From the NCBI GenBank assembly GCA_022843745.1, contig JALHNB010000029.1:1-64000 (forward strand): DNA of 64,000 nt, in the 5' to 3' direction. The DNA comes from Anaerolineae bacterium. GTDB taxonomy: Bacteria; Chloroflexota; Anaerolineae; Aggregatilineales; Phototrophicaceae. The position numbers and the translations under genes were made by a program. Positions 52,961 to 64,000 of this stretch are shown here, piece by piece (the first letter of the stretch is position 1; each line of letters starts with the position of its first letter). The notes under the pieces are model-generated. The model was not told the origin of the DNA. It worked only from the letters and a program-made list of their open reading frames with translations, and did no database searches.

Positions 52961-53747
52961 TCCCTGGCCGAACTCAATCCGTGAAATCAATGGCCTGCCG
53001 CTTGACGCAAAAGAGGCCATCTATCGAACACTGCTGCCGGATTGGTTATTCACACAATATGGCGTTGATCGAAACACGCTGATGGTTGGCGGGCAGCGTG
53101 TTGTACAGTTTCGTGCGCCTTCAGGCAGCCGGGCGGTTGAGATCAGCGTTAAGCGCCGCGCCGATGACCTTGACCCGATGCTCTATCTGAATATGGCGGA
53201 CACATTCAATAATCAAATTCTGGTTCTTTTGATGGTTATCAATAACCTGGATGCCCCACGATTTAATGTTGATGTTGACGAATCAGGGAATTCGACTCAG
53301 TTTGGCACTGCCGGACGCAATCGACCAGCAGAATTGGCTGCGATGAATGCAGGATTAGCGCCGGGTCAAATCCGCGCAGGTTTGCGCCAATTTAAGCAGG
53401 GGTTGCCGCTTTTCGAAGCATTTATCCGGCGAATAGGGCATGAGATGGTCTTAATTGAACCACTCGCCTACCATAATGCGATTGCATTTGAGCGCTATGG
53501 GTTCAACTATTTGCGTGGCTTGCAGGAAATGAAGCGCATCCATCAGGAATTTCAACCTGGCGCAAGTTTGCATAACATCCTGACAGACGACAATCCTTTT
53601 CGGCCTCCAGATGCCTGGAAAACGGTTCGCGGACGTTCGTGGGCTATTCACGATGGCATTTTAGGACACCCGTTTACTGGATTCCAGATGTATAAGACTA
53701 TCGGTAAAGAAGCCAATATCAACACATTTCCCAATGCGCAATGGTAG
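52950..53747 (+). CDS. Hypothetical protein of the ctpA-smpB operon
   Basis: A 265-residue soluble protein I do not recognise. The N-terminal third looks mixed alpha/beta (VGGQRVVQFRAPSGSRAVEISVKRRADD); the second half is mostly helical with conserved-looking polar motifs such as HEMVLIEPLAYHNAIAFERYGFNYLRG and WAIHDGILGHPFTGFQMYK. The latter has His and Asp residues that could bind metal or substrate, but that is only an impression. It overlaps smpB by 11 bases and the STAND ATPase gene by 14 bases, strong evidence for a coordinated unit. Confidence 0.75.
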   Translation: MTIDPWPNSIREINGLPLDAKEAIYRTLLPDWLFTQYGVDRNTLMVGGQRVVQFRAPSGSRAVEISVKRRADDLDPMLYLNMADTFNNQILVLLMVINNLDAPRFNVDVDESGNSTQFGTAGRNRPAELAAMNAGLAPGQIRAGLRQFKQGLPLFEAFIRRIGHEMVLIEPLAYHNAIAFERYGFNYLRGLQEMKRIHQEFQPGASLHNILTDDNPFRPPDAWKTVRGRSWAIHDGILGHPFTGFQMYKTIGKEANINTFPNAQW

Positions 53748-56100
53748 TCAACCATTTATAAGCTCCGAGAGCGTGCGTGAAGTCCTTGACGCGATGCTCT
53801 ACACTTCATCTCCCCAATCGCCAAGCCCACTTGAAGTGTTATCACTGGTCGATCACTTCATTGCGAATCCCGACCTGCCAGTCGCCGTTGAAAATCGCGA
53901 ATTTGCGCTGCGCCATCTGTTCATTTCGATCATAACGCACGAATACATCGAACATCGTCATAATTTGGGACTTGAGTCTGATGTATCACAAACAACACTG
54001 GAAGCCGCTGCCGAGGATATTCGTCGGGATGTCCAGCAGCATAACCCGGAGCTGCTCGGCTGGTGCTTGCTTTATTACCGTTATGTCCGTGTGGACTTGA
54101 ATTTATCGCTTGAATCAATCATGCCTATTACGCATATTGAGCAGCGTACTCTACGTCGTTATGTCACTCATACAATAGATCGACTGCGGGATTGTCTGAT
54201 AATCCGTGAATGGGAGGAAAGAACAAAACAGCGCAAAGTGCGTCTTTACGCAGCGCTTCCAGCTTCACTGCCCATTCCACTAGTTGGGCGCGAGGAAATG
54301 TTCCGACAAGTTCGAGGGGCGTTATCGGGTCAGTCGTTACGTCACATCCAGGTTACTGGCCCGCCAGGGATTGGAAAAAGTGTTTTTGTTCAGGAATTTC
54401 TACGTCAGCAGATTGATGATGGTCGAATCGACCAGGTAGTGTGGATTGAGAATCCAGAATCAGTTGATTTTGCGCGGCGTCTCCTTAATGAAATGCTTGT
54501 TCATGATCTGAATATGAGCTTGAAAGAATATACTTTAACCCATAAATTTGCTGTGATTCTGGATCACCTCGAATGTACAAGTCCTGAATGCGCCGCTGAT
54601 TTACAACAGCTTCTGAATGAACTTAACGCTGCACAGGTTTTTATCACCAGCCGTATCTATATACCACTTTTGCAGGGGACTAAACATGTCCCGATCAAAG
54701 AGCTAGCCGAGCCTGATGCTCTGGTATTAGTCCAAAACGCTATAGAGCTATTTGAGACCGATGGATTTGATCGCGAACATGCGAAACTGATTTATCAGGC
54801 TATTGGTGGCAACCCTTATGCACTCACACTCGCCGCCCATAATTTTAGCATTTACCGCATGGACACCACTGACAAAAATGTGCTGGATGAAATATTTAAC
54901 GAGTCTTACGAGGTGTTGGGCAATGAAACCCGGCATCTTTGGCTAGCTTTTGCTCTCTGCCCAACAGGCGAAGTTTCGGTGGATATGCTTTCTCGGTTGT
55001 GGTCATCTCTTGTCAATCAGGAGCGTATTATGACCCTGCTTCAGTATTATCTGATACAGCCGGGACAGGGAATTGGCTACTATGTGCTGCCCACCTCGTC
55101 ACGGAGCTTTATTCAGCGTAAGTATGCTGCTGCGCCTGCTACTTTGGAAGCTATAGTTGAAGCAGTAGATCATCATTTATCGGAAGTTTTACCCTTTGCT
55201 TTTGATGTTATCGAACATATTCTGTTTTCAAACTGGCTGAATAAAAATCCAGCGCTGATGCAAAAATGGATTAACGAATCTTTAAAAGAAGCTTTGCGGC
55301 GGGGACATTGCGCACGTTGGGTAACGATTATTGAAAATTTCCATAAACGTTATGGAACAAATGATATAAGCCTGAATATTGCGCTCGGAATGTGCTTACG
55401 TCGGGTTTCACAATGGCCCCAGGCGCATCAGATATTAGAGCAAGCCATGTTTGATGCTGGAAGGGCAGGAGAATTCTATCAACAGGGTAAGGCACTGTTT
55501 GAATTAGGTGTTCTCTATCGACAGCAGGGGTATTATGAGAAAGGAGCCACGATTCTGGAGAAAGCGGACAAAATATTCTCGCGATACGCCAGTGAGGATG
55601 CGATGAATGATCTGCGCATCGAACGTGCTCAGGTTGCCCTGGAGAGGGGAGATGCTCAACAAGCACAGATCTATCTACGCGATCTCCCATTAACAGGTCG
55701 TACATTAGCGATGTATAGTGAAATATATCTTCTCTTGGGTGATTTTGCACAGAGTCTTGATTTTGCACAGCAGGCGATTGCACTGAACAGCGATAATCCG
55801 GCGGCTGTCGGGAGGCTGTACGCGAGTATCGGACGCATTTATGATCAGTATGTTGAACTGGACAGTGCCTTCAATTATTTTGCCCGTGCTGTCACAATTT
55901 TAGAGCGGGAAGGGGACATATGGGCTTTGGCACGTGCTCAATCGAATATGGGTGCGCTGCTTATTCGTCTGGAAAACAGCTATGAGGCCTATGAGATTTT
56001 ATCAAAGGCCGAAAATATGCAGGTCATGCTGGGTGACCGAGTGGGATTAGAAACTACACGACATAATTTTCGTGTTTTGCGTGGGCGCTTTGGTGGTTGA
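53734..56100 (+). CDS. STAND-type ATPase with TPR C-terminus
   Basis: A 788-residue protein. The N-terminal region (about 1-165) is helical with an HTH-like end (MPITHIEQRTLRRYVTHTIDRL). The NB-ARC/STAND NTPase follows: Walker A TGPPGIGKSVF near residue 210, Walker B KFAVILDHLE, and the GNPYALTLAAHN motif with GNETRHLWLAFALCP of the ARC2/winged-helix part. The C-terminal half has TPR-like repeats (KALFELGVLYRQQGYYEKGA, LYASIGRIYDQYVELDSAFNYF). Such proteins act as oligomerising sensors in regulation or defence. It overlaps the upstream gene by 14 bases. What it senses is unknown. Confidence 0.85.
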   Translation: MRNGSQPFISSESVREVLDAMLYTSSPQSPSPLEVLSLVDHFIANPDLPVAVENREFALRHLFISIITHEYIEHRHNLGLESDVSQTTLEAAAEDIRRDVQQHNPELLGWCLLYYRYVRVDLNLSLESIMPITHIEQRTLRRYVTHTIDRLRDCLIIREWEERTKQRKVRLYAALPASLPIPLVGREEMFRQVRGALSGQSLRHIQVTGPPGIGKSVFVQEFLRQQIDDGRIDQVVWIENPESVDFARRLLNEMLVHDLNMSLKEYTLTHKFAVILDHLECTSPECAADLQQLLNELNAAQVFITSRIYIPLLQGTKHVPIKELAEPDALVLVQNAIELFETDGFDREHAKLIYQAIGGNPYALTLAAHNFSIYRMDTTDKNVLDEIFNESYEVLGNETRHLWLAFALCPTGEVSVDMLSRLWSSLVNQERIMTLLQYYLIQPGQGIGYYVLPTSSRSFIQRKYAAAPATLEAIVEAVDHHLSEVLPFAFDVIEHILFSNWLNKNPALMQKWINESLKEALRRGHCARWVTIIENFHKRYGTNDISLNIALGMCLRRVSQWPQAHQILEQAMFDAGRAGEFYQQGKALFELGVLYRQQGYYEKGATILEKADKIFSRYASEDAMNDLRIERAQVALERGDAQQAQIYLRDLPLTGRTLAMYSEIYLLLGDFAQSLDFAQQAIALNSDNPAAVGRLYASIGRIYDQYVELDSAFNYFARAVTILEREGDIWALARAQSNMGALLIRLENSYEAYEILSKAENMQVMLGDRVGLETTRHNFRVLRGRFGG

Positions 56101-57288: not shown

Positions 57289-57307
57289 GAAAAACTCCTG
57301 TGCGGTT

Positions 57308-57327
57308 TTCTGGGAGCGATCCCAGAA
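57308..57327. promoter_or_regulatory. LacI-family operator in the repressor leader
   Basis: An inverted repeat with arms TTCTGGGA/TCCCAGAA around GCGA, containing the 14-base core TGGGAGCGATCCCA (57311-57324). Its form (TGGGAGCG-nTCCCA, central CG) resembles CebR/CelR cello-oligosaccharide operators, with one change. Confidence 0.75.
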
Positions 57328-57734
57328 TTTAATTAGATGATAGCAATAACCCCCGCATTTTGTCAAAGTCAGTATCTTTGAAAGTTTCGAAAGCAAAACA
57401 TCCAATCATATTACAGGCACTAGCGTTGCCGGGTATAGCATAAATCTCTGTCTTGATAACTTTTTTACTATTTCAGGTTCAGTTGTTCAAATCTGATGCA
57501 GTATTGCATCAAGTTTTTCATAGGGCACGATGTGTTTTATGTTGTGGTTATTCACGCATATTCATGTACGCATATCGCTGCCTGATAAAGACAATCAAAT
57601 ATCTGGTTGACTGATTAGTACCGATAAGAGTTCTTATCACGGAGTAATTGCATTAAAAGCTTGTTCGGACAACAAAAGCGTTATTTTCAAATCGCTATGG
57701 GCAGCAAGTTGCGTAACACACTCGTTCTATTATC

Positions 57735-57743
57735 TGGTATAAT
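57735..57743 (+). promoter_or_regulatory. Extended -10 promoter of the ATPase-helicase operon
   Basis: TGGTATAAT at 57735-57743 is an extended -10 element with no good -35 box; the ATG is 36 bases on, preceded by GAGGG. Confidence 0.6.
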
Positions 57744-57778
57744 AGTGGGATGCGCAGTTGCATCATCTGAGGGTTTTT

Positions 57779-58927
57779 ATGACGACACCGCCCACTCGTA
57801 CACGAAAATTTCGCGTTGAATTTCGTCAGCAAGAAGTTGGTCATGTGATGGAACGCTGGCGTGCTTCGGATTCCTGCTCGTTGGTTGGTGTTGGCAGCGT
57901 TGGCAAATCGAACCTCATGCAGCACCTCGCCGATCCCGATGTCCAAAAAGCGTACATGAAAGAAACAAAGGTTCAGCTTTTTAAAGCGATCATTATTGAC
58001 CCCAGCCTGCTCGTTCCTTTACCACAGCTCCAGGATGCCAACTCTGAGCAGATTCGATGCTGGGCAGGATATGAATTGCTCATGCACCGCCTGTTCTTAT
58101 CATTTTACCAATCCAACATGCTCAACGATCAGGAAGCGGCGCGGTTGACGGAAATCTATCAATCTCTGCAAAACGGTAACAATCCGTTATACGCCTATAT
58201 GGGTCTGCGCTACTTCGAGCTTGGGCTTGAACTCTTCATGCGCAAAAATATACACATCGTCTTCATGTTCGATGAATTTGAGGAAATGTTCAAGCAGCTC
58301 CCTGTCAAGTTTTTCCTGACTTTGCGCGGTCTGCGAGATGCCAATAAAAAGCAGCTCTCCTATCTGACCTTTACCCGTTCGCCAATCCCCGCCATTATTG
58401 AGCGCGAGGGAATCGATCAGCTAGCGATTGAACAGTTTTCGGAACTTTTTACGGATAACGTGTTCTATGTTGGCCCCTACAGCGATGTCGATGCGCGTGA
58501 GATGGTCGAAAACCTGACAGGTCGCAATCAAAAGAAATATGACGAGTATGCAGTAAACTTTCTTTTGTGGGCAACTGGTCGTTTCGCTGGTCTGCTGCGG
58601 GCGGGATTTCGCGTACTCGATTCGTTGAAAAACCTGAATCCATCAACGACTATGACCAAAGGCGATCAGCTTGCCGCACAAATTGCTAAGAAGAAGCCAG
58701 TGCGCATCGAATGTCGTACTATCTGGACAAGCCTCATGGACAGCGAAAAATATGTGTTAAAAGCCGCTGCGGGTTTGGTTGGATTTCAGCGCAGTGATGA
58801 TGTCGATGAAGCTGTTGAAATGCTCGTACAAAAATCACTCCTGACGATTGATGCTGAGAATCGACTCACCATCGAGCCGCCTGTTTTTCGTGCATTTGTC
58901 ACAAGCGATTCGGACACCAATCTATAA
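57779..58927 (+). CDS. STAND/ORC-like AAA ATPase, first gene of a nuclease-helicase operon
   Basis: About 382 residues. Walker A GVGSVGKSN near residue 40, Walker B IVFMFDEFEEM in the middle and LTFTRSPIPAI (sensor-1-like) show an ATPase of the AAA/STAND type. The C-terminus (EKYVLKAAAGLVGFQRSDD, AVEMLVQKSLLTIDA) looks like a winged helix. The ATG at 57779 has GAGGG upstream and is preferred to a TTG at 57758. It is followed after one base by the helicase-like gene, so it belongs to the same unit. It could act as a loader or sensor for the helicase-nuclease; that is inference. Confidence 0.8.
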   Translation: MTTPPTRTRKFRVEFRQQEVGHVMERWRASDSCSLVGVGSVGKSNLMQHLADPDVQKAYMKETKVQLFKAIIIDPSLLVPLPQLQDANSEQIRCWAGYELLMHRLFLSFYQSNMLNDQEAARLTEIYQSLQNGNNPLYAYMGLRYFELGLELFMRKNIHIVFMFDEFEEMFKQLPVKFFLTLRGLRDANKKQLSYLTFTRSPIPAIIEREGIDQLAIEQFSELFTDNVFYVGPYSDVDAREMVENLTGRNQKKYDEYAVNFLLWATGRFAGLLRAGFRVLDSLKNLNPSTTMTKGDQLAAQIAKKKPVRIECRTIWTSLMDSEKYVLKAAAGLVGFQRSDDVDEAVEMLVQKSLLTIDAENRLTIEPPVFRAFVTSDSDTNL

Positions 58928-58928
58928 A

Positions 58929-60980
58929 ATGCCTGTTATACCTGAATTTAACGGCTCACTTTTTCTTGAAGGGCCTGCTGGAAGCGGCAAAACTACCGCT
59001 GCTGCCAGCCATCTGCTCGAACTTATTGATTCCGGCGTAAACCCTGAGTCGATTCTGGTGATGGTGCCGCAATTTAATTTAGCCGCGCCCTACTCTACCG
59101 CCTTAGCCGCGTTAGACATTGGCATATCACCGACAATAACGACTTTTAGCGCGTTCGCACGGCAGCTTCTCCGGCGTTTTTGGCCTGTAATCGCAGCGCA
59201 GGCTGCTCCTGGATTGCCGGTGCGCGAACCCGTATTCCTGAACCTGGAAACGGCCCAATATTATCTCAAACGCTTTGTCGATCCTTATATTCAGGGTGGG
59301 ATTTTCGATAGTTTACGAGTGCCACGCCCCCGCTTAATCGCGCAAATTCTCGACAATATGAACAAAGCTGCCTTATCTGGTGTCACCCTTGAAGAAGCGG
59401 AAATGCGCCTGGTGGCAGCCTGGGGTAATCGACATTCCAGCCGCCAGCAAATCTATAAGGTTTCTACCCAGATTGCCCAGCAATATCGCGCATTTTGCCT
59501 GCAAAACAACCTGCTTGATTTCGGCTTAATGGTCGAATTATTCAGCACCCATTTGCTTGGAACGCCTGTATTCGAGAATTATTTCTATCAGCGTTACGAG
59601 TATTTCATCGCCGATAATATTGAGGAAATGAGTGCTTTAGAGCATGATTTTGTGTCGTGGTGTGAGGAAAATACACGCCAATCTTTGCTGATTTATGACC
59701 ATGATGGCGGGTATCGGGCATTTTTGGGTGCTGATCCGGCTAATGGGTATCAACTTCGAAATATCTGCGACGCGCAATTGCAATGGGATCAACTTGCGCT
59801 GGTTTCAGGGCCAATCCAGAGTCTGGTCAGCGAGGTAAGTTCCATTCTCGCGCCAGAATATGAAACCGATAGCGTCGAAGTGCCGACTGGCGAGGTGATC
59901 AGTTTCTCAACGGATACCTATTACCCGCAGATGGTCAATACATGCGTAGAGCAAATCAAAAATCTTGTCCGGCAAGAAGCGGTTTCGCCATCGCAGATTG
60001 CGATCATGATGCCTTTTCTGAGCGACTCGCTGCGTTTTGCTCTGCAAAGTGGGCTGGAGACTGCCAATATTCAGTCACAAGTTTACCGCCCTTCTCGTCC
60101 GCTGATAACCGAACCGGCTGTAAAAGCGCTTATGACCATTCTGGTACTCGCTCATCCTGAATGGGAGATTACGATACCAGTCAGTGATGTTGCGATTGCT
60201 TTGAGTCTCTTGATTGATGGCCTGGATCCATCTCGTGGGCATTTGCTCACCAGTATCGTGTATCGCAAACACCTTACGAGTTTTGACGAAATCAACGCCA
60301 AAATGCAGCAGCGTATCACCATTGAAGCGGGAGAACGATACGAACGTTTAAGACTGTGGATTTACGATCAAGCTGCGCAAAATGTCCCACCCGATCATTT
60401 CCTGAGTCGTCTTTTTGGCGAAGTCCTCTCGCAGCCTGGTTATGGATTTCATCACAATTTTGATGCGGCACGCTCGATTGACGATTTGGTTCGTTTTGCT
60501 GCCCGTTTCCGGCAGACGATTTACCCCGATGGCCTTGAAGTATGGGCATCTTTTACACGCGAACTTTATGAGTTAGTATCTGGCGGACTTGTTCCAGCAC
60601 ACACATTTGACGCTGATGAAAATATTGATGCAGTTCTGATCGCTCCGGCCTACACGTTTTTGATTGCAAATCGTTCAGTCGATTATCAATTCTGGCTGGA
60701 CGCTGGAAACACAGGATGGGAAGAACGCCTTGAGCAGCCGCTTACCCATCCCTATGCGCTGCAACGTAATTATGAACCCGGCGCGGCGTGGACGGATGAC
60801 ATGGAAAAATCGGTACAGGAAACCATGCTCAAAAATATCGTCCTGGGCTTGCTTCGTCGCTGTCATAAAAAGGTCTTTGTCGGGATAACCGACATCAGCG
60901 AAAGCGGCTATGAACAACGCGGAATGCTGCTCAAACTCTGCCAGGAAATTCTGAGCCTACAAAGGGGAACAGAAGCATGA
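58929..60980 (+). CDS. AddB/UvrD-like SF1 helicase-type protein with degenerate motif VI
   Basis: A 683-residue protein. It keeps a Walker A (EGPAGSGKTTAAASHL) and a motif-Ia-like TTFSAFARQLLRRFW. The Walker B position reads FIADNIEEMSALE instead of DExx. The region usually holding the arginine of motif VI is VFVGITDISESGYEQRG, where LYVALTRAR is expected, so the arginine finger is missing. This pattern resembles AddB-like or AdnA-like partner subunits, which bind but barely use ATP. No nuclease domain is fused. Its stop overlaps the next gene's ATG (ATGA). Overall class confident; the exact subunit role is inferred. Confidence 0.8.
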   Translation: MPVIPEFNGSLFLEGPAGSGKTTAAASHLLELIDSGVNPESILVMVPQFNLAAPYSTALAALDIGISPTITTFSAFARQLLRRFWPVIAAQAAPGLPVREPVFLNLETAQYYLKRFVDPYIQGGIFDSLRVPRPRLIAQILDNMNKAALSGVTLEEAEMRLVAAWGNRHSSRQQIYKVSTQIAQQYRAFCLQNNLLDFGLMVELFSTHLLGTPVFENYFYQRYEYFIADNIEEMSALEHDFVSWCEENTRQSLLIYDHDGGYRAFLGADPANGYQLRNICDAQLQWDQLALVSGPIQSLVSEVSSILAPEYETDSVEVPTGEVISFSTDTYYPQMVNTCVEQIKNLVRQEAVSPSQIAIMMPFLSDSLRFALQSGLETANIQSQVYRPSRPLITEPAVKALMTILVLAHPEWEITIPVSDVAIALSLLIDGLDPSRGHLLTSIVYRKHLTSFDEINAKMQQRITIEAGERYERLRLWIYDQAAQNVPPDHFLSRLFGEVLSQPGYGFHHNFDAARSIDDLVRFAARFRQTIYPDGLEVWASFTRELYELVSGGLVPAHTFDADENIDAVLIAPAYTFLIANRSVDYQFWLDAGNTGWEERLEQPLTHPYALQRNYEPGAAWTDDMEKSVQETMLKNIVLGLLRRCHKKVFVGITDISESGYEQRGMLLKLCQEILSLQRGTEA

Positions 60981-63286
60981 ATCGCCCCCTCGACCCCCTG
61001 TTTCGACAGGCGCAGCAGGATGCTATCCAGTATCGCTCCGGCACGCTGGCGATTTCTGCTGTCCCCGGCAGCGGAAAAACCTTTACATTGGCGCATCTGG
61101 CGGCGCGTTTAGTCAGCCGATTGTCAAAAAGCGACCTGATGAAAGAGCGTGAAATTCTGGTCGTGACGTTCACCAACAGCGCTGTCAACAGCCTGCGCCG
61201 TAAAATCGCGGGTGTTTTGCAGCGAGATCGTGGCTTGCTGCCCTATGTCGGCTATCGCGTCCGCACATTACATGGTTTGGCGCATGACATTGTGCGCGAA
61301 CGCCCTACTCTACTCGGCCTGACCGAGGATTTCCGCATTCTCGATGAGCCAACTTCCCATCAGATTATTCGTGAACTCACCGAAAGCAATTTGCGGCAGT
61401 ACGGAGACTCGCTCAAATCTTTCATCTATGCCGACCTGCTCCAGGACAAGCAACAAACGAAGAAGATTTTGAGCTACGATTTGCCGGAATTGACGATCCA
61501 GATTTGCGAACGGTTCATCAAATATTGCAAAGATAATATGATGACACCGGGGGATTTTTATGCGAACGAAAATCTTGAACGCTTTCCGTTAGCGCAATTT
61601 GGACTGCGCGTGTACGACGATTATCAGCGCAGCCTTGCCTATCGCGGCGCACTGGATTTTGACGATCTGGTACGGTTGGCGCTGGTCGCCATTAACGAGA
61701 ATGAGGATTTTCGAACACGGTTGCAAAAACGCTGGCCTTATATCCTGGAAGACGAAGCGCAGGACAGCAGCGCCTTGCAGGAACAGATGCTGCGGCGCTT
61801 GACCGAGACTCATGGCAACTGGGTTCGCGTTGGCGATCCGAATCAGGCGATCAATACAACTTTTACGACTGCAAATCCCCGTTATCTACGGGAATTTGCA
61901 CAGCAGGCCGAAAACCAGATTCCGCTTACACAGTCCGGACGGTCCGGCAGACCCATTGCTGATCTCGCGAACGTTTTGGTGGAATGGGCTGTCGCGGAAC
62001 ATCCAATCCATGAAGTGCGCGAGGCGTTCGACTATCGCCTAATTGAGTCAACACTGCCCGGTGATCCACAGCCAAATCCGCTTACCGAAGAGACTCAGGT
62101 TTATATTCATCCCACAAATCAGCCTGTTACGCCGGATCGCGAATTAACGCTGACACTCGAAAGTCTCCAGCGCTGGTTGCCGGAGAACGGCGATAAAACC
62201 GTTGCCGTGCTTGTGCCGGAGAATCATCGCGGGTTTAAGCTGATGGAACTCTTGCAGCGTGCCTATCTGCCCTGTGAAGAACTGCTCCGCAGCACATCGA
62301 CAACGCGTGAGGTTGCGGCTGCATTTCAGGCCACGCTGAAGTATCTCGCTGCGCCACTTGATGCCCAGGCACTTGCCGCAGTTTATTGCGATGTCTGGTG
62401 GGGCTGGAATCTCGGCCAGATCAAACTGGTTGACCTCAAGGGTGAGGTTGAGCTGGATTCGCTGATTGAGCAAGCCACAAAATCAATCGCCAATTATCAG
62501 CAGCTTGAAGATTTCCTGTGGCCTGCGGATGAGTCAGCCTGGATTTCCAGAATCAAAATCATCGCAGATTATCCAGTTTTAGAAGCCGACCTGATTGCTT
62601 TCCGTGAACATGTGCGACATTGGTTGCAAGCAATGATTCTACCCATCGACCAATTGATGCTCACCATTGGTCAGGATATTTTTCGCGATCCGGCAGACCT
62701 GGCGCTGAGTCATAAAATGGCCGTTGCGCTACGGGCGACACAAGACCTGAACCCGGAATGGCGCGTGAATGAATTTGTCGCCGAGTTGCAAGCGATCAGC
62801 TCGAATGAACGGCGTTTTATCGGCATTGAAGATATGGCATCCGGTTATGAGCCGCGCACCGGTGTGATAACCGTCTCGACCCTACATGCAGCCAAAGGTT
62901 TGGAATGGGATCGGGTTTATCTGCTGGGTGTTAACAATTACTCGTTTCCATCGGCAGAACCCGGTGATATTTTTATCAGTGAAAAATGGTTTGTGCGCGA
63001 CCACTTGAATCTTGAGGCAGAAACGTTGGCGCAAGTCGATGCGCTCCGCGATGATACTGTTTACCGGGAAGGCATTGCGACAGGTCAGGCACGGCTGGAT
63101 TACGCATCGGAACGGCTGCGCTTGCTGTATGTTGGCATCACGAGGGCGCGACGCGAATTGGTCATCCTCTGGAATACGGGTCGCTACAGTTATCGAGGCG
63201 GTAGTATGGTCTGCCAACCCGCCTTGCCGCTGACTATCCTGTTTGAGTATGTGGGCGGTACACGTATCGTCAAGAGGCCAAGTTAA
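60977..63286 (+). CDS. UvrD/AddA-type SF1 DNA helicase
   Basis: A 769-residue superfamily 1 helicase with complete motifs: Walker A AVPGSGKTFTLAHLA, VVTFTNSAVNSL, motif II YILEDEAQDSSALQ, motif III VRVGDPNQAINTTF, motif V VSTLHAAKGLEWDRVYLLG and motif VI LRLLYVGITRARREL. It should translocate 3' to 5' on DNA. Unlike AddA it lacks a C-terminal nuclease domain; a nuclease is encoded by the next gene. Overlaps the helicase-like gene by four bases and is separated from the nuclease by one base. Confidence 0.93.
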   Translation: MNRPLDPLFRQAQQDAIQYRSGTLAISAVPGSGKTFTLAHLAARLVSRLSKSDLMKEREILVVTFTNSAVNSLRRKIAGVLQRDRGLLPYVGYRVRTLHGLAHDIVRERPTLLGLTEDFRILDEPTSHQIIRELTESNLRQYGDSLKSFIYADLLQDKQQTKKILSYDLPELTIQICERFIKYCKDNMMTPGDFYANENLERFPLAQFGLRVYDDYQRSLAYRGALDFDDLVRLALVAINENEDFRTRLQKRWPYILEDEAQDSSALQEQMLRRLTETHGNWVRVGDPNQAINTTFTTANPRYLREFAQQAENQIPLTQSGRSGRPIADLANVLVEWAVAEHPIHEVREAFDYRLIESTLPGDPQPNPLTEETQVYIHPTNQPVTPDRELTLTLESLQRWLPENGDKTVAVLVPENHRGFKLMELLQRAYLPCEELLRSTSTTREVAAAFQATLKYLAAPLDAQALAAVYCDVWWGWNLGQIKLVDLKGEVELDSLIEQATKSIANYQQLEDFLWPADESAWISRIKIIADYPVLEADLIAFREHVRHWLQAMILPIDQLMLTIGQDIFRDPADLALSHKMAVALRATQDLNPEWRVNEFVAELQAISSNERRFIGIEDMASGYEPRTGVITVSTLHAAKGLEWDRVYLLGVNNYSFPSAEPGDIFISEKWFVRDHLNLEAETLAQVDALRDDTVYREGIATGQARLDYASERLRLLYVGITRARRELVILWNTGRYSYRGGSMVCQPALPLTILFEYVGGTRIVKRPS

Positions 63287-63287
63287 A

Positions 63288-64000
63288 GTGATCGACATTC
63301 GACTGTCCGCGACTTCCATTCGGGATTATCTGGATTGCGCTCGACGCTTCCAACTGCGATATATCCTCGAACAACCCTGGCCTGCTGCGAAAAACGAGCC
63401 GCTCCTCGAATATGAACTGAGTCGCCAACGGGGTGCGCAATTTCATCGTTTGCTTGAGCGTTATTACCTCGGTGTCGATGCGCGCACATTGTCCGACATG
63501 ATTACAGACCCCGTTATTCGTGGTTGGTGGCAGATTCATCAGGATCAGCAGCCTGTTGATGTTGTGACCAGTGAGCGAATTTTGCCAGAGAAGTTATTTC
63601 AAGCAAAACTGGACGATTATGTACTCACCGCTTTTCTTGATCTTGTTGTCATCGGCACAGATGACACTGTGACGATTATTGATTGGAAAACCACGCATCG
63701 CGAACCCAACCCGCAGGAATGGTCAAGCAGTATTCAAACGCTTGTCTATCTCTACGTCGTTGGCGAGAAAATTGCAGCGCTGCAAAACCATTCTGTTCGG
63801 CTATCCGACATTAAGATGCTCTATTGGTTTGTGGAACATCCCAAACAGCCTGTTTTAATTAATTATGGCGATATCCAGCATGAACAGGCGAAAAGCAAAT
63901 TACGCGGATTGCTCCAACCGCTGTCGGATCGCCTCAAAGCCGAATCGAATATCGAGTGGCCTAAAACGCCCGATATAAAGAAGTGCAAATTTTGTGTCTA
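63288..64000 (+). CDS. PD-(D/E)XK nuclease (Cas4/AddB-nuclease type), partial
   Basis: Runs off the end; 237 residues are visible from a GTG at 63288, one base after the helicase stop. N-terminal Cys in YLDCARRFQLRY, then GAQFHRLLERYY, the core LDLVVIG...IIDWKTTH (motif II/III Asp...Asp-x-Lys) and a final CKFC at the window edge suggest the iron-sulphur PD-(D/E)XK nucleases found in Cas4 and the AddB C-terminal domain. The remaining cysteines would lie past base 64000. Together with the helicases it could form a split AddAB-like machine. Confidence 0.85.
   Translation, partial: MIDIRLSATSIRDYLDCARRFQLRYILEQPWPAAKNEPLLEYELSRQRGAQFHRLLERYYLGVDARTLSDMITDPVIRGWWQIHQDQQPVDVVTSERILPEKLFQAKLDDYVLTAFLDLVVIGTDDTVTIIDWKTTHREPNPQEWSSSIQTLVYLYVVGEKIAALQNHSVRLSDIKMLYWFVEHPKQPVLINYGDIQHEQAKSKLRGLLQPLSDRLKAESNIEWPKTPDIKKCKFCV

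Follow-up and report, generated by a model that had tools for sequence, protein, structure and literature searches.

A conserved pseudo-helicase, helicase and nuclease cassette of Anaerolineae: a candidate DNA-end processing machine built from separate subunits

Introduction

In the bacterial DNA-end processing enzymes RecBCD, AddAB and AdnAB, motor and nuclease are fused in one chain, and it is therefore hard to ask what each part does. The 64,000-nucleotide stretch analysed here (positions 1 to 64,000 of contig JALHNB010000029.1, assembly GCA_022843745.1, from an Anaerolineae bacterium of the Chloroflexota; hereafter the window) ends in a run of closely spaced genes encoding an AAA ATPase, a helicase-like protein with lost motor motifs (g2), a complete UvrD-type helicase (g3) and a stand-alone PD-(D/E)XK nuclease (g4). 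An earlier sequence-only reading took this run for AddAB broken into individual subunits, preceded by an ATPase that might act as the sensor of a defence module. Which of these genes belong together, and what might they do? Comparison with relatives identifies g2-g3-g4 as the conserved core, which in relatives is usually joined by a second, long RecJ (RecJ2). We consider it likely that this core is a DNA-end processing machine that works like AddAB, AdnAB or RecBCD in recombinational repair and that may also degrade foreign linear DNA.

Results

The g2, g3 and g4 genes form a conserved unit

Gene order was compared at 120 g2 loci, drawn from 40 of the 42 other genomes with a strong g2 match (among 61 genomes, namely the window's own and 60 relatives) and from the best 80 of 488 relatives in a species-wide scan; dropping 15 duplicates left 105 non-redundant loci. 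In 64 of the 93 loci with room for a further gene, the g3 start lies no more than 100 bases from g2, and in 18 more g3 is within 4 kb; an in-frame g3 start codon lies at the g2 stop in 64 of 70. The g4 gene comes after g3 in 60 of 73 loci, RecJ2 after g4 in 42 of 53, and yigZ after RecJ in 15 of 39. The unit is divided in some genomes: g3 and g4 lie together on a different contig from g2 in G023 and G041, and likewise on another contig in G055, where g2 stands at a contig end; g3 and g4 are on different contigs in G040, and g3 is alone in G018.

The RecJ encoded in the operon has a median length of 774 amino acids (aa) and shows the DHH, DHHA1 and RecJ_OB domains in all five proteins scanned, its three motifs being kept in 45, 45 and 46 of 46 sequences. 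RecJ_OB gave two matches in 17 of 21 genomes (mostly chosen for holding the operon), one in three and none in one. Genomes with two RecJ proteins have a short copy elsewhere and, in most, a long copy that is the one in the operon, which suggests that the operon RecJ is a dedicated paralog. G042 and G044 have the long copy away from g2, and G012 and G029 have one RecJ_OB match each. RecJ2 was not found in the window's genome, whose sole RecJ_OB match is a 587-aa frame elsewhere.

The g2 protein is a pseudo-helicase with a fixed residue pattern

Pfam recognizes the UvrD N-terminal domain in g2 (1.1e-8). The window's protein keeps Walker A (GPAGSGKT), has DNIEE (D-N-x-E-E) in place of the DExx motif II, and reads GITDISESG in the motif VI region, where its g3 counterpart reads GITRARR. 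These positions were followed through an alignment of 105 proteins, comprising those of the window, of Salinibacter and of the 105 non-redundant loci (103 used, two short fragments being excluded). The Walker A lysine is kept in 103 of them (one gap, one T), and the position of the DExx glutamate holds N in 98, H in 6 and S in 1, never glutamate. The sequence-only reading had called g2 a dead helicase, a claim that would fail if the motif VI arginine appeared at another position of an alignment; neither of the two arginine columns holds R in any of the 104 aligned rows (the remaining row is a gap), and the claim stands, with the cautions that the Salinibacter protein has an R one column off and that nine residues past motif VI there is R in 72 proteins or K in 11. 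Such a fixed pattern across 105 proteins suggests that the pseudo-motor is maintained and that the gene is not in decay; local decay was accordingly rejected as the cause of the dead motifs. The protein probably still binds nucleotide.

An AlphaFold2 model of g2, built from 46 sequences, reached a predicted local distance difference test (pLDDT) score of 88.3. Its highest Z was obtained with UvrD (29.7, at a root-mean-square deviation, rmsd, of 8.9 over 563 residues), followed by AdnB (Z 25.2, rmsd 4.0 over 616 residues, nearly the whole length; another entry gave 3.9 over 617) and by residues 2-696 of AddB (Z 22.5, rmsd 6.0 over 609 residues). The predicted structure thus shows the shared SF1A fold, from which a placement in the AddB family does not follow.

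The g3 and g4 proteins keep their catalytic residues

The g3 protein carries the SF1A motifs, and Pfam finds no nuclease domain in it. Across 80 sequences (from 78 of the 89 loci with a match, the window and Salinibacter, shorter ones being excluded), the counted motif residues are invariant apart from gaps, except at the second motif VI position, which holds R in 45, K in 31 and M in 1. The whole g4 protein matches PF12705 (2.4e-30), and the window's copy has C17, a CxxCx5C array and the D..DxK..QxxxY residues. Cysteines C17, C233, C236 and C242 are kept in 63 of 63 aligned g4 sequences (61 of 62 loci plus two), in which the counted nuclease residues are invariant save for one D to E change; the g4 profile also matches the AdnB nuclease domain (1.4e-4). 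Both a complete UvrD helicase and a separate nuclease with CxxC, as the sequence-only reading had described them, are therefore borne out.

Two variants of the nuclease content were observed. In family f2, g2 is directly preceded by an additional PD-(D/E)XK nuclease of some 335 aa (L074:6957-7979, L075:7173-8168, L092:8528-9541 and L098:2051-3076), recognized by Pfam PDDEXK_1 in L074 and L075 and by weak g4-profile matches only in L092 and L098; perhaps it restores a two-nuclease machine. Loci L062 and L144 have the order ATPase-g2-g3-yigZ, that is, a cassette without its nuclease.

The ATPase in front of g2 is seldom linked to it

The Walker A and B residues are present in the ATPase, and the Walker residues are conserved in 15 aligned relatives. 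Its model, made from four sequences and of modest confidence (pLDDT 75), has a C-terminal HHH-beta-beta element, in agreement with the winged helix proposed from the sequence, and matches the archaeal ATPase 2qen, ORC/Cdc6 and NLR folds in the PDB (Z from 16.5 down to 11.9). Against Pfam nSTAND1 it scores 14.6 bits, under the curated cut-off of 27.1. A sequence search of the PDB gave no match under E 0.04, and no relative was found in the plasmid collection, phages not having been searched for the ATPase.

Among 87 other g2 loci with room, the ATPase lies directly before g2 in three and about 3 kb upstream in one; the direct coupling was restricted to the window's genome, a pair of genomes from genus g13 and one metagenome-assembled genome (MAG) near them in the tree. 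Twenty of 53 further ATPase matches, those near g2 left out, were fetched (L101-L120): in 15 of them, yigZ comes next in the same orientation, no more than 20 bases away; in one the distance is 1081 bases, and four have no yigZ there. In 37 genomes of the family, both ATPase and g2 are present in 14, g2 only in 8, the ATPase only in 10 and neither in 5 (Fisher p = 1.0). Linkage and co-occurrence rule out the ATPase as an obligatory part; it seems to be mostly a neighbour, usually before yigZ, and not part of the core. The proposed role as sensor or subunit thus lacks general support, and the idea of a four-gene system, which was to weaken if the ATPase were unlinked in relatives and an ordinary AddAB lay elsewhere in the genome, is weakened on both counts, the ATPase being mostly unlinked and a canonical AddAB being present.

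Distribution, overlap with AddAB and history of the cassette

Some match to the g2 profile was found in 126 of 301 genomes of the phylum. Strong matches occur in the window's own genome, in one family member and in 29 of the 36 same-class genomes among those listed (30 have any match, one of these weak, and 6 have none); in these 301 genomes, matches outside the class stay at 42 bits or less. In another phylum, plasmid pSR56 of Salinibacter ruber carries g2-g3-g4-RecJ complete and in the same order, annotated as hypothetical protein, ATP-dependent helicase, PD-(D/E)XK nuclease and RecJ. On this plasmid, an HTH-M78 (ImmA/IrrE-type) regulator and a 202-aa open reading frame (ORF) without a Pfam match precede the four-gene unit (L227:7011-8880). 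A Candidatus Fraserbacteria contig (L191), also outside the phylum, has g2-g3-g4-RecJ, perhaps through transfer or else through a binning error. The matches from Ilyobacter (20% identity) and Allocoleopsis (26%) in the plasmid collection are single genes without the operon. No g2 relative was found among 50,697 phage records or among viral contigs, and a phage origin of g2 was rejected on this ground.

The window's genome also encodes separate, full-length AddA (1174 aa) and AddB (1098 aa) proteins, which in NCBIfam match addA_Gpos and addB_Gpos best or nearly best, in both cases under the curated cut-off; the cassette is thus not a canonical AddAB misread. A 264-aa ORF, methyltransferase-like by eye, lies between canonical AddB and AddA (L007:4100-11745, G000:C4). 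When AddA or AddB was counted at E < 1e-30 in the 61 genomes, 26 had the cassette with AddA/AddB, 17 the cassette only, 15 AddAB only and 3 neither. In the 17, g2 is present and neither AddA nor AddB reaches this threshold, RecBCD not having been searched by model there; a strongly diverged AddAB may have escaped these searches, whose AddAB queries were taken from a single genome. Outside the family there are 24 order-level relatives, of which 6 have both, 15 the cassette only, none AddAB only and 3 neither. Two of the three genomes with neither (G052, G060) hold a long g3 fragment, so that assembly gaps may hide g2 there.

A midpoint-rooted tree was made from 55 g2 sequences free of stops and at least 600 aa long. 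In it, the copies of the window, of genus g13 and of one MAG form one clade (support 100/99), which is placed with weak support (90/76) beside the f3 and f8 copies, whose operon ends in yigZ; 16 other rows of the family form a separate clade among Anaerolineales copies. A g3 tree of 45 rows, made by a quick method, likewise separates the two groups. The simplest reading would be an ancestral ATPase-g2-g3-g4-RecJ2-yigZ neighbourhood from which RecJ2 was lost in the window's lineage. The whole cassette would have been lost in most of the family, leaving ATPase-yigZ, and other members would hold a different cassette elsewhere.

Layout and surroundings of the locus in the window

The features of the locus are collected in Table 1. 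The sequence-only reading had described four tightly coupled genes; their coordinates are confirmed, as are the one-base gaps between the ATPase and g2 and between g3 and g4 and the ATGA overlap of g2 with g3, and the count rises to five, since the first base of yigZ (UPF0029), just beyond the window, is also the last of the g4 stop codon. The window ends within this operon-like run, the source genome being 7.96 Mb in 117 contigs. The G+C content is 0.43 immediately upstream, 0.48-0.53 over the cassette genes and 0.46-0.50 before.

Upstream of the ATPase, the palindromes that had been noticed are present as 11 inverted-repeat pairs. The promoter attributed to the same region is unsupported: the sole promoter-like site is on the minus strand and faces the lacI-family gene (one site, with 1.9 expected), and the promoter scan rules out a private promoter upstream of the cassette. 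Three terminator-like hairpins were found on the plus strand at 57308-57541, between lacI and the ATPase (0.3 expected), the first of which may double as a LacI-family operator. Further upstream, positions 53734-56100 hold a 788-aa AAA_16/NB-ARC protein with TPR (STAND-like), overlapping a 265-aa ORF without a Pfam match.

Table 1. Features at the end of the window (window positions)
Feature	Position	Strand	Remarks
Inverted repeat TTCTGGGAGCGATCCCAGAA	57308..57327		Probable operator of the divergent lacI-family gene, upstream of which it lies; outside the cassette
STAND/ORC-like AAA ATPase, 382 aa	57779..58927	+	ATG 57779, stop 58927; probable C-terminal winged helix; flanking, outside the conserved core
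g2, pseudo-helicase with UvrD/AdnB/AddB fold, 683 aa	58929..60980	+	ATG start; Walker A kept; DExx Glu and motif VI Arg lost; nuclease domain absent
g3, complete UvrD-type SF1A helicase, 769 aa	60977..63286	+	Without nuclease domain
g4, stand-alone PD-(D/E)XK (PF12705) nuclease, 271 aa	63288..64000 in window	+	GTG start; four conserved cysteines; ends at contig position 64103

Discussion

Gene order and linkage, the conservation of catalytic and pseudo-catalytic residues, the joint occurrence of the genes and the predicted fold of g2 are the direct results of this work. The parts list, the common order, the joint carriage by a plasmid of another phylum and the occurrence in genomes in which no AddAB was detected suggest that the core processes DNA ends for recombination. 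We infer that the products form a complex, with the following polarity and assignment of strands. The g3 helicase would be the only motor and would unwind from a double-strand end, while the fixed pseudo-helicase g2 would hold and guide one strand, in the place of AddB or RecC, as a natural candidate for reading a Chi-like signal. The g4 nuclease would cut the emerging strand, and RecJ2, where present, would extend resection of the 5' strand and leave a 3' tail for RecA. A role in repair, and any destruction of foreign linear DNA, would follow from this scheme.

Several observations weigh against this proposal. No g3 was found nearby in 11 of the 93 g2 loci with room, no strong g3 anywhere in G007 and G050, and no g4 in G012, G029, G032 and G018. 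The fold search cannot separate AddB, AdnB and UvrD for g2 and places UvrD on top in Z, and g2 is weakly like AddB by sequence: a comparison with the genome's own AddB by hhalign gave a probability of 10% (E 0.003), and a PDB profile search gave 1e-7 for UvrD and 0.05 for AddB. Profile comparison of g4 with the same AddB gave a probability of 2%. The canonical AddAB means that the cassette is not the only such machine in the window's genome, 15 of the 61 genomes do with AddAB and no cassette, and a housekeeping gene set would not usually be found on a plasmid, where Salinibacter has it.

Alternatively, the set could be a dedicated anti-phage or anti-plasmid defence module whose helicases and nuclease degrade incoming DNA, repair not being the main task. 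Among the PADLOC-DB 2023 protein models, compared singly, g3 resembles GajB of Gabija (up to 1.9e-41), g2 the helicase of a reverse-transcriptase system (RTasHel, 4e-11) and g4 Cas4-like models (2.6e-5). These matches are partial or unspecific: g3 matches Pfam UvrD (1.4e-46) and Rep (1.6e-46) as well as GajB, so that the GajB match is not specific, and no GajA model matches g2, g4 (a PF12705 protein) or the ATPase, g3 having been judged on the best 25 of 56 matches. The plasmid location behind an HTH-M78 regulator in Salinibacter would fit defence, as would a CHAT + CARDB protein encoded before g2 on the other strand in G042 (L072:5736-7877), whereas the few neighbours scanned are mostly ordinary genes (yigZ, cobW, PCMT, a vitamin transporter). 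Published parallels include the improved plasmid maintenance and transformation of Synechococcus elongatus upon loss of comparable genes (PMC10653904), a suggestive likeness, and an AddB-like protein with an inactivated helicase beside CRISPR-like repeats, reported in PMC10910872. The lack of g2 relatives in phage records and viral contigs, the strong g2 matches in most of the same-class genomes listed and the presence of the cassette in 15 of the 18 order-level relatives without AddAB (61-genome survey) all argue the other way. We regard this weaker rival as unlikely, and the defence module of the sequence-only reading is left unsupported here, with one full relative on a plasmid.

Two further arrangements of the same genes were weighed. 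The ATPase, g2, g3 and g4 could be subunits of a single machine, with the ATPase as sensor or loader of the helicase-nuclease; in the window, L061, L062 and L144, ATPase and g2 meet at junctions of one or two bases, which have been kept while the ATPases diverged to 60-61% identity. The rarity of this linkage in other loci, the yigZ gene immediately downstream in 15 of the 20 ATPase loci sampled away from g2 and an occurrence independent of g2 in the family make this very improbable. Equally, g2 and g3 could be a UvrD-type pair for another task, such as fork repair or transcription-coupled repair, with the nuclease acting alone. UvrD is the best match of g2 both by sequence and by Z, g2 stands apart from g3 and g4 in several genomes, and g4 was not found in some; the regular succession of g4 after g3 and of RecJ2 after g4, together with the joint presence of the four genes on a plasmid of another phylum, renders such a pair highly doubtful.

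If g2-g3-g4 is an end-processing machine, it would be a natural version in which each part is its own protein, with its own RecJ, so that strand choice, signal reading and resection could be tested piecewise. It would also offer an answer to how Anaerolineae without detected AddAB start recombinational repair.

Comparison with known systems

AddB is a pseudo-helicase that keeps Walker A and has lost the other motor motifs; nuclease domains are fused to both AddB and AddA, and the Fe-S-type cysteines of the AddB nuclease are one C followed by CxxCx5C. The cassette has the corresponding parts, namely a pseudo-helicase that keeps Walker A (a pattern met in 105 g2 sequences, with a model that aligns to AddB 2-696), a UvrD-type motor and a PF12705 nuclease, predicted to be of the Fe-S type from the AddB-like cysteine pattern found in 63 of 63 g4 sequences. 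It differs from AddAB in that helicase and nuclease parts are separate proteins, g2 and g3 lacking a nuclease domain, in having one nuclease instead of two and usually a linked RecJ, and in its weak sequence similarity to AddB. The description as AddAB broken into subunits holds well as a likeness of parts, since pseudo-helicase, UvrD-type motor and stand-alone nuclease are conserved together, and not necessarily as one of descent.

In AdnAB of mycobacteria, AdnA and AdnB each combine motor and nuclease in one chain, an arrangement not found in g2 or g3, although AdnB gives the lowest rmsd over nearly the whole g2 model and its nuclease domain is matched by the g4 profile. RecBCD, with a dead SF1-like subunit (RecC), a motor and a single nuclease, has a division of labour like that proposed here; the cassette differs from it in having no RecD-like second motor among its four genes and an unfused nuclease. 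In NCBIfam, g3 reaches 104 bits with the recB model, whose cut-off is 696, and no recC or recD model reaches its cut-off in the window's four proteins.

Our literature searches found no description of the four-gene unit g2-g3-g4-RecJ2. One study reports RecBCD, AddAB or AdnAB in 88% of its genomes (PMC6452273). Predicted operons with an unfused UvrD helicase and a separate Cas4-like, PF12705-type nuclease, mostly from Clostridiales, have been reported in a non-defence context with a suggested role in DNA repair (PMC5704561); compared by description, they share these two components with the cassette, and the section that describes them mentions neither a pseudo-helicase nor a RecJ. In the transposon screen of S. 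elongatus, loss of uvrD, of recJcy (a second recJ paralog), of cas4 or of Synpcc7942_0992 (PD-(D/E)XK) each favours a foreign plasmid and transformation, and its authors discuss these genes together with Argonaute (PMC10653904). Argonaute and Cas4 homologs are also named in PMC7125226, and two recJ copies are noted for many cyanobacteria in PMC5101192. The section on the screen reports no operon or pseudo-helicase, and the comparison is one of descriptions; a UvrD, a second RecJ paralog and nucleases acting against a foreign plasmid would make it the closest experimental hint, its link to the cassette being a suggestion. On balance, the chances appear even that the cassette represents a further bacterial end-processing class beside RecBCD, AddAB and AdnAB, in which a separate pseudo-helicase, motor, Fe-S-type nuclease and dedicated RecJ are encoded together, mainly in Anaerolineae, where it could replace AddAB, and transferable between phyla, with one case on a plasmid.

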